A stretch of DNA of 64,000 nucleotides from positions 248,001 through 312,000 of the forward strand of contig NZ_JNAW01000004.1 in assembly GCF_000760215.1 (NCBI RefSeq), written 5' to 3'. Each line of letters starts with the position of its first letter. Position 1 is the first letter of the stretch. Both the position numbers and the translations under genes were made by a program. Of the stretch, positions 12,456-46,674 are shown in pieces. Source of the stretch: Prochlorococcus sp. MIT 0603 (lineage in GTDB: Bacteria > Cyanobacteriota > Cyanobacteriia > PCC-6307 > Cyanobiaceae). The notes under the pieces are model-generated. The model searched no databases. It saw nothing but the letters and a program-made list of their open reading frames with translations, and had not been told where the DNA came from.

Positions 12456-13100
12456 ATGACAAGCTTCGCAAAAAAACCAGCCAGTTTTAAGGTATTCGAG
12501 CAGGACCTTGATGATGCAATAGCCACAAAATTTTCCAAAAAAGCAATTTTAGCTATTGATTCTGAAGCTATGGGTCTAGTTCATGGTCGTGATCGAATAT
12601 GTCTAGTACAAATTTGCGATGATGATGATAACGTTGCCTGCATCAAAATTCATCAAGGTCAAGAAAATGCTCCGAGACTAAAAATGTTAATGGAGAATAA
12701 TGATATTGAGAAAGTTTTCCATTTCGCAAGATTTGATGTTGCGGCCCTTGCAAGCAATCTCAAGATTGCAGTTAAGCCAATTTTTTGTACAAAGATCGCC
12801 AGTAAACTGGGAAGAACATATTCACCAAGGCATGGGCTCAAAGAAGTGATTTTAGAGCTAGTAGGAGTTGAGCTTGATAAACATGCCCAAAGTAGTGATT
12901 GGGGAAGAATAGAAGACCTTTCAGAAAAACAATTGGAGTATGCTGCCAATGATGTTCGTTTCCTTATTCCTGCCAGAAATAAACTTAAAAAAATGTTGGT
13001 AAGAGAGCAAAGATGGGAGCTAGCAAAAAAATGTTTTGAATGTATACCTACTATCTGCGAACTGGATAGACGACGCTTTAATAATATTTTTGAACATTAA
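12456..13100 (+). CDS. rnd: ribonuclease D-type 3'-5' exonuclease, short form
   Basis: Predicted DEDD-family 3'-5' exoribonuclease that trims RNA 3' ends such as tRNA precursors. At 214 residues it holds only the catalytic domain and lacks the HRDC domains of the E. coli enzyme, which is usual for the cyanobacterial form. Seen: Exo I as AIDSEAMGL (Ser where Thr is common), Exo II as FHFARFDVAAL, and Exo III as YAANDVRFL with the conserved Tyr and Asp. ATG at 12456. Convergent with the small gene at 13117, 16 bases apart. Confidence 0.88.
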   Translation: MTSFAKKPASFKVFEQDLDDAIATKFSKKAILAIDSEAMGLVHGRDRICLVQICDDDDNVACIKIHQGQENAPRLKMLMENNDIEKVFHFARFDVAALASNLKIAVKPIFCTKIASKLGRTYSPRHGLKEVILELVGVELDKHAQSSDWGRIEDLSEKQLEYAANDVRFLIPARNKLKKMLVREQRWELAKKCFECIPTICELDRRRFNNIFEH

Positions 13101-13441: not shown

Positions 13442-14713
13442 TCATGAATTATGTAGAAATACGTTCAAAATCATTTTTGCCAAAGCTTGACTTCCTCCAG
13501 AATGCCCCATGCGCTTTTTACCTATGCATGCTAAGGAATTCCTTAAGGGAACATCTTTAAGTAACAATTCAACTGTTTGAGCCATTTTTTTAGCGGTATT
13601 ACATGGAATGACACTTCCACCAAGTAAGCGACTCTGTCTATGTGCAAACTGATATTTAAATTGCGGCCCTTTACCAGGAAGTGAAACACATGGAACACCT
13701 AGTCCTACAAGTTGTTCCGTCGCAGTTCCAGCATTGGCAATCCCAACTTCCACTAAGCTTGCCCATTGTTCAAATTTCCCAAATCCGATGAAAATTTTCA
13801 ATGAATCTTTCTCAAAGCAAGCATTAGCAGAGACCTCATTCTTGAAGGAAGGCAAGTGGCTATAACCTAAGTGAAGCAAACAACTCTCAATATTCTTCAA
13901 GGAAGGCTCTGTACCAATTGCGACAAGAATGGCTAATGGTCTTTCGCTTTCGATTTTTTCAGCAGCAATAATTAATCTCTTAAAATTCACAATTGCTTCT
14001 GGCATTCGACTGCCACATAGCAGTAATAATCGCCTAAATTCTTTAAGATACAAAGGAGAGCTCACTGACTCCAAACCATCCATCATTGGGTTGCCAGGTG
14101 CATGAGCTCTAATGTTCTTTTTTTGTAAGCCTCTAGCAGATAACTTGTCTCGTACAGCAACTAATTTACAACGTGGGGTTTTCATCAAAGCCCACTCCCA
14201 AGGCTCCCATTCAGTTCCTTTAAGGCGATGGTAATAGTAACTTAATGATGGACTTCTAGTAGGGGCAATCCATGTGTAATCACTTTTAGGTGTTCCAATA
14301 AATGCATAATCTCCACCACTACTCCAAGCATAGAAAAGTGGTAATAAGTCTCCTACAGCAATAACAAAGCAACCATTTTTGACAGCTTTTCTCACATACA
14401 ACCAATTCTTCCAATTAATGACCAAAAAGCCTGCTAAGAGATCAGCAAGAAATCCTTTCAAGCTTTGATTACTAAAACCTCCACTTGGCAATCTTAAAGT
14501 ATGACCAACCTTTCTTAGCCAGCGTTCTTCAATTGCAGAGGAAAAGACCCGTCCTTCACCAACTAATGAAATCACTTCAAAATTTAATTTTGGACTCTCA
14601 CGATTTAAAGCCTCTAATACTCTCAAAGCAATAAGGTCCTCACCATGACCATTCGATAGCACTAAGACATTTTTTTTCTTCTGCCTGATACGATCCAAAG
14701 TAGGAATAGTCAT
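13442..14713 (-). CDS. lipid-A-disaccharide synthase-related glycosyltransferase
   Basis: A 423-residue GT-B-fold protein related to LpxB. Seen: N-terminal VLVLSNGHGEDLIALRVLEAL, a mid-protein switch region with LLLCGSRMPEA, and the C-terminal donor-binding motif VGIANAGTATEQLVGLGVPCVSLPGKGPQF, where the GTATEQ element takes the place of the LpxB GTATLE element. This is the cyanobacterial LpxB-related family rather than LpxB proper, so the acceptor sugar lipid is unknown. ATG at 14713, only 11 bases from the tRNA-Cys gene on the other strand. Confidence 0.8.
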   Translation of the reverse strand: MTIPTLDRIRQKKKNVLVLSNGHGEDLIALRVLEALNRESPKLNFEVISLVGEGRVFSSAIEERWLRKVGHTLRLPSGGFSNQSLKGFLADLLAGFLVINWKNWLYVRKAVKNGCFVIAVGDLLPLFYAWSSGGDYAFIGTPKSDYTWIAPTRSPSLSYYYHRLKGTEWEPWEWALMKTPRCKLVAVRDKLSARGLQKKNIRAHAPGNPMMDGLESVSSPLYLKEFRRLLLLCGSRMPEAIVNFKRLIIAAEKIESERPLAILVAIGTEPSLKNIESCLLHLGYSHLPSFKNEVSANACFEKDSLKIFIGFGKFEQWASLVEVGIANAGTATEQLVGLGVPCVSLPGKGPQFKYQFAHRQSRLLGGSVIPCNTAKKMAQTVELLLKDVPLRNSLACIGKKRMGHSGGSQALAKMILNVFLHNS

Positions 14714-14724
14714 AACTTTTCCTC

Positions 14725-14795
14725 GGCGGCATGGCCAAGCGGTAAGGCAGAGGATTGCAAATCCTTTATCCCCAGTTCGAATCTGGGTGCCGCCT
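14725..14795 (+). tRNA. trnC: tRNA-Cys (GCA)
   Basis: Cloverleaf seen directly: acceptor GGCGGCA (14725-14731) pairs with TGCCGCC (14788-14794); anticodon loop reads TTGCAAA inside a GGA/TCC-type stem, giving anticodon GCA; T-arm CCCCAGTTCGAATCTGGG with the TTCGAAT loop. Discriminator T at 14795; CCA is not encoded. Only 71 bases long, as expected for a short variable loop. Confidence 0.97.
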
Positions 14796-14893: not shown

Positions 14894-14924
14894 AAAAAAA
14901 GAGCGCCCTCAACGAGCAGCGCTC
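14894..14924 (-). terminator. intrinsic terminator of the Yfr1-like RNA
   Basis: On the minus strand GAGCGC (14924-14919) pairs with GCGCTC (14906-14901), with a possible inner CTC/GAG pairing in the loop, and is followed directly by TTTTTTT (14900-14894). This is a textbook rho-independent terminator. No protein gene on the minus strand ends here, which supports a separate small RNA. Confidence 0.85.
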
Positions 14925-14951
14925 CGGTGGACAATTGTGTGAGGAGTGTCC
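14894..14951 (-). ncRNA. yfr1: Yfr1-like small regulatory RNA
   Basis: On the minus strand the sequence from about 14951 reads GGACACTCCTCACACAAT and contains the exact 11-base Yfr1 core ACTCCTCACAC (14949-14939 region), known from cyanobacteria as the unpaired pairing element that represses porin-type mRNAs with Hfq-independent kinetics. It is followed by a GC-rich hairpin and seven Ts, giving a transcript of about 58 nt, the expected Yfr1 size. Odd: the core is flanked by GGACA and TGTCC, so it could sit in a 13-base hairpin loop rather than between two hairpins. The 5' end is inferred from the -10 element. Confidence 0.75.
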
Positions 14952-14957
14952 ATTAAC

Positions 14958-14963
14958 ACTATA
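14958..14963 (-). promoter_or_regulatory. -10 element for the Yfr1-like RNA
   Basis: TATAGT on the minus strand, inside TATATAGT, lies seven bases before the inferred first base G at 14951. No strong -35 hexamer is evident upstream, so it may depend on an extended or alternative sigma contact. Confidence 0.5.
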
Positions 14964-35690: not shown

Positions 35691-36099
35691 GAAAGCAGGA
35701 GAGGTGATCGCAATCGAGAATTGTCGAAATTCGACAATAAATACTCGGTTGAGGAAAGTCCGGGCTCCCATATGGTCGAACTTGCTGGGTAATTCCCAGT
35801 GCGGGTGACCGTGAGGATAGTGCCACAGAAACACACCGCCGATGACTTTTATGAAGAGCAATGCTCTGAAAAGAGGACAGGCAAGGGTGCAAAGGTGCGG
35901 TAAGAGCGCACCAGCAGTATCGAGAGGTGCTGGCTTGGTAAACCCCGGTTGGGTGCAAGGCAAAGGTTTTAGGATGACCATTTTACCTATCTCCTAATTG
36001 AAAGCCGCTAGAGGTTGTTGGAAACAACAATCCCAGATAGATGATCACCCACCATCAAACTTGATAGTGAACAGAACCCGGCTTACGACCTGCTTTCCC
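35691..36099 (+). ncRNA. rnpB: RNase P RNA
   Basis: The catalytic RNA that matures tRNA 5' ends. Ends are placed by the P1 helix: GAAAGCAGG at 35691-35699 pairs with CCTGCTTTC at 36089-36097. Universally conserved blocks are seen: GAGGAAAGTCCGGGCTC (about 35752-35768), the P7-P11 region with GTGCGGTAAGAGCGCACCAG, GGTAAACCCC, and the 3' AGTGAACAGAACCCGG followed by TTACGACC. Cyanobacterial type A. Ends are accurate to a few bases. Minus-strand open frames here are artefacts. Confidence 0.96.
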
Positions 36100-36146
36100 A
36101 TAATTACTTTGTAAAAGACCAATAAAAACTATTGAAAAAGAAGCAA

Positions 36147-45132: not shown

Positions 45133-46578
<1,446 letters not shown>

Positions 46579-46582
46579 TCAC

Positions 46583-46665
46583 TTTCCTTCACCGGTACAA
46601 ACCGTATCAGGTTCAGAGGGTGTGATCTCAGCCAAAAGCAATAGCTTTTTATGGCACCCCTAGTG
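46583..46665 (-). promoter_or_regulatory. TPP riboswitch of thiC
   Basis: On the minus strand, from 46665, the thi-box sequence is plain: ACTAGGGGTGCC, GGCTGAGATCACACCCTCTG, ACCTGATACGGTTTGTACCG, then GTGAAGGAAAGT. The CTGAGA and ACCTGAT pieces are the conserved TPP-sensing elements, with GGGGTGCC pairing with the end of the pyrimidine helix. It lies about 60 bases before the thiC ATG. Mode (termination or start occlusion) is not clear since no poly-T hairpin follows. Confidence 0.95.
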
Positions 46666-46668
46666 ATA

Positions 46669-46674
46669 TTTATA
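46669..46674 (-). promoter_or_regulatory. -10 element of thiC
   Basis: TATAAA on the minus strand (46674-46669) lies seven bases before the first base of the riboswitch, so transcription would begin at or next to ACTAGG. The riboswitch thus starts almost at +1 and the full leader to the ATG is about 140 bases. Confidence 0.5.

Follow-up and report, generated by a model that had tools for sequence, protein, structure and literature searches.

The minus strand of the analysed DNA (64,000 nucleotides, hereafter the window) carries a predicted small RNA of 58 nt. Its predicted 5' end lies at position 14951 and its 3' end in the U tract at 14894; the evidence comes from the fold and the model R1 described below. 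The convergent neighbour is a tRNA-Cys gene (GCA) on the plus strand at 14725-14795, which lies outside the sRNA and was used as a marker for the locus. Read directly from the minus strand, the sequence runs TATAGT-GTTAAT-GGACACTCCTCACACAATTGTCC-ACC-GGAGCGCTGCTCGTTGAGGGCGCTC-TTTTTT. The 11-base element ACTCCTCACAC that the initial annotation had described was confirmed in exact form at 14937-14947 and is the proposed pairing site of the RNA. It was the sole match in the window at up to one mismatch, where 0.60 matches are expected by chance at that tolerance. The genome of 1,752,482 bases was also searched for the second copy that the annotation had considered, and no other exact ACTCCTCACAC was found; the reversed control gave none.

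Folding of the 58 nt predicted two hairpins (-19.9 kcal/mol, z -2.93; 1 of 200 shuffles as good). The 5' hairpin at 14929-14951 has the stem GGACA/UGUCC around the motif, of which all but the first base lie within a 13-base loop; the motif bases past the first A have an unpaired probability of 0.91-1.0. The 3' hairpin at 14900-14925 belongs to the terminator and contains the conserved core GCGCTGCTCGTTGAGGGCGC. It is followed by a run of seven T at 14894-14900, made up of the last stem base of GGAGCGCTGCTCGTTGAGGGCGCTC and the T tail. A -10-like box TATAGT is located at 14958-14963, six bases ahead of the predicted start. The strong terminator with seven T, the spacing of TATAGT and a transcript of about 58 nt, all proposed earlier, thus agree with the direct reading and the predicted fold. 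A promoter scan recovered TATAGT with a weak -35-like TAGAAA, and it found 2 sites in the stretch with 2.3 expected, so the scan alone is no evidence for a promoter.

The model R1 was built from 17 copies of the RNA in the genus, 16 with the exact motif and one (L045) with one change. In our genome, whose copy is among the training copies, it matched G000:C4:262890-262951 on the minus strand with 88.3 bits, and 94 bp separate this 62-nt match from the tRNA-Cys gene. At the gathering threshold, the Rfam search listed nothing at the sRNA locus. Elsewhere in the window, a TPP riboswitch (46567-46671, minus strand) and an RNase P RNA (35691-36101, plus strand) were found over their cut-offs.

The predicted structure is of the Yfr10 type

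In Yfr1, two stem-loops flank an unpaired stretch of 16-20 nt that holds the motif (PMC2190773), whereas in Yfr10 the motif lies in the loop topping a stem (PMC6778093). The MED4 Yfr1 sequence printed in PMC2190773 was folded with the same program as the locus RNA, and its motif appeared in the linker. The locus RNA has no two stem-loops with the motif in a linker. It carries the undecanucleotide in a hairpin loop on a covarying stem, as Yfr10 is described in PMC6778093. It also lies away from the usual, though not universal, place of Yfr1 at guaB/trxA; these genes are found on contig C2 of our genome. Since the position of the motif in a hairpin loop is the published mark of Yfr10, the RNA is of the Yfr10 type by its predicted structure, outside the Rfam Yfr10 family as modelled. 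In an Rfam search of the locus at a loose threshold, the Yfr10 model (RF02362) ranked first with 25.1 bits, below the gathering cut-off of 43. The orthologue in SS120 scored 23.5 bits, none of the 14 genomes of the genus reached the cut-off, and at E<=1 the model also matched 3 of 14 control genomes. The Rfam Yfr1 model (RF01116), which the initial annotation had proposed as a check, gave 13.7 bits at the locus with a cut-off of 38. The name Yfr1 given there could therefore not be kept: the motif is in a loop and not in a linker, the model score is low, and the retained guaB-trxA spacer is without the motif.

Search for Yfr1 in the genus

To our knowledge, Yfr1 is almost universal in cyanobacteria. 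The statement in the initial annotation that it was missing from two low-light strains agrees with the report on SS120 and MIT9211 (Voss 2007, PMC2190773). When the Rfam Yfr1 model was run on the 14 genomes of the genus, including ours, none had a match above the cut-off or at E<=0.01. The single sub-threshold match in the genus (E 0.39) is itself a Yfr10-type copy (L052/L072). Since the model matched 202 of the 251 family genomes under stricter filters, it works in this family. The guaB gene was found in 10 of the 14 genomes with TIGR01304 (TIGR01302 is the wrong model for these genomes), and the remaining four are incomplete. In all ten, trxA follows guaB, as judged by eye, and the motif is absent from all ten spacers. 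A degraded yfr1 in these spacers was considered and rejected: the best 11-mer matches had 3 to 5 mismatches and were no better than in shuffled spacers. The spacer with 3 mismatches (L084) was equalled by 20.8% of 500 shuffles and the others by 64% or more; our own spacer has 5 mismatches at best. A Yfr1 elsewhere in our genome was likewise rejected, with no second exact motif, no model match above the cut-off and no motif in the guaB-trxA spacer. A canonical Yfr1 at another locus, which would have spoken against the initial annotation, was thus not detected above the cut-off, and its placing of the gene away from guaB/trxA was borne out; the genome belongs to the genus of SS120.

In another genus of the family (g9; G021, G075, G102, G200, G218, G233, G247, G258, G269 and G279), none of the ten genomes, of which seven are at least 95% complete, appeared among the listed Yfr1 or R1 matches (by eye, strict filters). 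These genomes may be without Yfr1 or have a divergent one.

Distribution and covariation

At E<=0.01, R1 matched 66 of the 251 family genomes, in 34 of 59 genera. Counted by eye, 55 of the 66 genomes, in 29 genera, match at E<=1e-7; the matches in the other 11 are weak and may be due to chance. Strong R1 matches were found in 42 genomes of other genera, and 27 of these genomes, counted by eye, had a Yfr1-model match as well. One of them is MIT9313 (G082), where the Yfr1 match has the coordinates printed in PMC1242208. Since Yfr1 and the R1-type RNA coexist in 27 genomes, they are separate genes. This bears on the reading that the locus holds a true Yfr1 that has moved from guaB/trxA and been restructured. 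The undecanucleotide is the same, the length is similar and the usual place is without Yfr1, but the coexistence, together with the motif in a loop and the low score with the Yfr1 model, makes this reading very unlikely.

For covariation, 40 matches from 37 loci were aligned. In four rows, MAFFT had placed gaps on one side of the outermost pair, so the counts were taken from an alignment fitted to the structure, which favours that structure. In this alignment, 8 of the 15 pairs show a change on both sides, compared with 3.1 in shuffles, and none of 500 shuffles reached this number. The paired cells amount to 98.8%, as against 93.1% in shuffles and 42-62% for slid structures. Of the 40 rows, 26 have G-C and 8 have C-G as the outermost pair of the 5' hairpin; in one row this pair is open, and five rows have a gap there. 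In a rough initial count of the folds, the motif was in a loop in 25 of the 40 rows, in a linker in 1 and otherwise in 14. On inspection, most of these 15 non-loop rows turned out to form the standard 5' hairpin, its loop containing one to three additional pairs. The best fold lacks the standard hairpin in L065, L157 and the second match in L033; the second match in L158 is without the motif. Sequestration of the motif by the 3' hairpin (CCUCA with UGAGG) was also considered and rejected: its probability was 0.003 in our copy, and among the 39 rows that have the motif it exceeded 0.06 in only two, L061 (0.32) and the divergent second match in L033 (0.65).

The 3' hairpin

The core of the 3' hairpin, GCGCTNCTCGNNGAGGGCGC, was found at 46 places in 36 of the 251 genomes, and the reversed control gave none. 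All 46 places lie inside an R1 match, a count that is possibly circular, as R1 itself contains the hairpin. At 41 of them, the exact 11-mer is located within 40 nt upstream; at 4 its 11th base is changed and at 1 (G019) it has decayed. Since the motif or a near-variant stands just upstream in 45 of 46 places, the core is not a general-purpose terminator, and from the sequences the 3' hairpin appears to be dedicated to these RNAs. This suggests that there is more to them than the loop motif. The passages of PMC6778093 on Yfr10 homologues describe them as hardly conserved outside the motif in sequence, synteny and structure; in contrast, sequence and structure are conserved outside the motif in the large subset found here. 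R1 was trained on copies with this hairpin and says little about Yfr10 RNAs that end differently, as the Rfam consensus does.

The fixed succession of motif and core also speaks to the explanation that a chance 11-mer happens to lie beside an ordinary terminator. A 2-Mb genome is expected to contain about 0.5 such 11-mers (PMC2518516), and the promoter scan was not above chance, yet conservation and covariation extend over 29 genera. Since the motif, both stems and the -10-like box are all conserved in related genomes, we give a chance origin practically no weight. The sRNA gene is real and conserved and of a known type; as a discovery it is ordinary.

The RNA in the genomes taken to be SS120 and MIT9211

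One genome of the genus, G002, we take to be SS120; its Cyano-1 match at 556643-556707 (minus strand) overlaps the SS120 yfr2 gene, printed as complement 556612..556701 in PMC1242208. G002 has two exact copies of the motif, the same number that Voss 2007 counted in SS120 and set aside (PMC2190773). The first lies within a reading frame of at least 905 codons. The second belongs to the orthologue of the locus RNA (L064, L136) at G002:C1:1596000-1596061. Judged by eye, both genomes have the neighbour order ~90-aa frame, ~420-aa gene, tRNA-Cys, sRNA, ~205-aa gene and purM-like gene. In 2005, a Northern blot of SS120 probed for Yfr1 was negative (PMC1242208), and in 2019 Yfr10 was reported in this strain by Northern blot (PMC6778093). 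Since the orthologue is the sole motif copy outside the long reading frame, the RNA detected in 2019 is presumably this one. The locus RNA is thus an orthologue of a known sRNA. The claim that the gene had been overlooked was once true, when both SS120 copies were set aside.

Another genome, G089, is presumably MIT9211. It contains an R1-type RNA with tRNA-Cys about 0.8 kb away and is not among the listed Yfr1-model matches. The string 'MIT9211' has no occurrence in PMC6778093, and the literature passages on Yfr10 do not mention the RNA in MIT9211. Compared with these passages, our additions are modest, namely that the genome taken to be MIT9211 has the RNA too and that the 3' hairpin is a dedicated one. 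The absence of Yfr1 from SS120 and MIT9211 was a puzzle. With the precise placing, the tRNA-Cys siting in the genomes taken to be SS120 and MIT9211 and a multi-genus covariance model, the idea that Yfr10 partly stands in for it (PMC6778093) becomes easier to test.

Linkage to tRNA-Cys and further copies

Twelve of the 14 genomes in the genus have a copy of the tRNA-Cys type close to tRNA-Cys, ten of them inside 3-kb loci, G013 at about 2.1 kb and G007 at about 5 kb. The motif is exact in 10 of these 12 copies, and a one-base variant occurs in G010 and G012. Of the two other genomes, both incomplete, G003 has copies on other contigs, and its contig with tRNA-Cys (L079) ends some 390 bases from that gene; in G008, the model search found no R1 copy. 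The -10 place in the aligned tRNA-Cys-type copies reads TATANAGT, except for GATAAAGT in L067. The same linkage was observed in 3 of 3 genomes of the genus of G028, G077 and G104 and in 2 of 3 of the genus of G051, G089 and G114, which makes tRNA-Cys a neighbour in 17 of 20 genomes in three genera. None of these six further genomes was seen by eye among the listed Yfr1-model matches, and G028 is named as without a match. The eleven loci inspected in other genera (L150-L160) contained no tRNA-Cys. In two relatives that have the ~420-aa gene and tRNA-Cys (L077 and L078), no R1 match was found within the available sequence.

Downstream of the sRNA, a gene on the same strand (13442-14713) encodes a protein of 423 aa for which no Pfam name was found. 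With the terminator upstream of this gene, the RNA might be regarded as its cis-acting leader or attenuator. However, the distance from the RNA to tRNA-Cys, beside which the gene lies, varies from about 0.1 to about 5 kb among the relatives, and other copies are located elsewhere, some beside Yfr2-type RNAs. A leader function is therefore most improbable.

A second copy type was found in the genus (L061, L065, L068, L069, L071 and L072). It has the same 5' hairpin, weakened in L065, and shares the 3' hairpin, which is slightly altered in L065 and L072, but its upstream sequence differs from that of the tRNA-Cys type. In L061, L068, L069 and L071, a Cyano-1/Yfr2 RNA follows about 90 nt downstream, and one is also found downstream of the variant copy in L033; none was seen in L065 or L072. 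Yet another Yfr10-like RNA occurs in L033-L036 (in G012, G013, G004 and G003). Its motif is altered, for example to ACTCCTCACAT, it ends in another terminator (GGCACC...GGTGC), and in L033 and L035 it stands immediately downstream of a Cyano-1 RNA. Near G000:C2 197476 (L200) and in L055, L056 and L062, we noticed a second structured element that is conserved. It has the motif in a hairpin followed by a longer hairpin, and the stem of the longer hairpin shows a compensated difference in L056. The motif is exact in L055, L056 and L062 and has one mismatch in our genome (L200). On the opposite strand, L056 (47.4 bits, over the cut-off), L062 (36.9 bits) and L055 (29.4 bits) have a Cyano-1-like match nearby; L200 had none at E<=1. 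The element may be one more RNA of the Yfr10-like kind, converging with a Yfr2-like one.

Proposed pairing with Yfr2-type RNAs and mRNAs

Our genome has two Cyano-1 (Yfr2-type) RNAs over the cut-off, and both carry GTGAGGAG, the complement of the motif core. Short stretches of the two are predicted to pair with the loop at -16.3 and -17.3 kcal/mol, with 14 and 5 of 1000 simple shuffles as good. For longer RNAs, the simple duplex program gave results not clearly better than shuffles (78 and 37 of 200 as good). With 29 places in our genome and likewise 29 for the reversed control, GTGAGGAG shows no enrichment, and no convincing mRNA target was seen among its places by ORF position. A gene for an RNase D type 3'-5' exonuclease (PF01612) is located at 12456-13100 on the plus strand, about 1.8 kb from the sRNA; the legend of a Yfr2 target figure in PMC6778093 names rnd, along with other genes.

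With MED4 RNAs, binding of Yfr10 to Yfr2 and to mRNAs has been reported, and Yfr10 rises in darkness (PMC6778093). The affinity was stronger for Yfr2 than for the ppa mRNA (PMC6778093). This, the complementarity of the loop to both Yfr2-type RNAs and the lack of enrichment of the pairing site in the genome would fit an RNA that acts chiefly as a sponge of Yfr2-type RNAs, so that the targets of Yfr2 are freed, and that itself has few mRNA targets. Against this, peaks of 253 mRNAs were enriched with Yfr10 in MED4 (PMC6778093), and we regard a predominant sponge function as rather unlikely, with some weight left to it.

Interpretation and comparison with known RNAs

Taken together, the evidence argues strongly for an independent gene for a trans-acting sRNA of the Yfr10 type, with the proposed loop-pairing mechanism and part of the work of Yfr1. 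The RNA would be transcribed from its own minus-strand promoter and end at its own terminator. Its 5' hairpin, whose stem covaries, is predicted to present ACUCCUCACAC as an open loop, which would pair with matching mRNA sites and, in Yfr2-type (Cyano-1) RNAs, with the GUGAGGAG stretch. Pairing with an mRNA would change its translation or stability, and Yfr2 would compete for the loop, as reported for the MED4 RNAs (PMC6778093). The conserved 3' hairpin would end the transcript and may have a second role. For our genome, promoter use, expression, Yfr2 binding and targets are all inferred. The locus RNA is the only carrier of the exact motif in its genome and belongs to a low-light Prochlorococcus lineage in which Yfr1 was found neither at guaB-trxA nor at other sites. 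It probably takes on some of the tasks of Yfr1, as was suggested for Yfr10 in SS120 as a partial stand-in (PMC6778093).

A wider proposal has two parts. In low-light II/III Prochlorococcus, a Yfr10 subtype linked to tRNA-Cys would have become fixed along with the loss of the otherwise near-universal Yfr1, and would have taken over the network of the motif. In addition, the Yfr10-type RNAs of many picocyanobacteria would form a coherent family of two modules, in which the conserved 3' hairpin (GCGCU-N-CUCG-NN-GAGGGCGC) would be more than a terminator and act as a second functional element, for example by binding a protein. We put this combination forward tentatively and lean slightly against its holding as a whole.

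Compared with Yfr1 (RF01116), the locus RNA has the undecanucleotide, falls into the 54-69 nt class and has its own terminator, but the Yfr1 motif lies in an unpaired linker and its gene is usually at guaB/trxA. With Yfr10 (RF02362), reported in Prochlorococcus MED4 and SS120 and in Synechococcus WH8102, it shares the Yfr1 motif in the loop of a 5' hairpin followed by a terminator, and a genome that also has Yfr2-type RNAs. It differs in its score below the Rfam cut-off and in a 3' hairpin unlike the Rfam consensus. The Yfr10 of high-light strains has been reported upstream of a Yfr2 gene, whereas the RNA described here is located beside tRNA-Cys.
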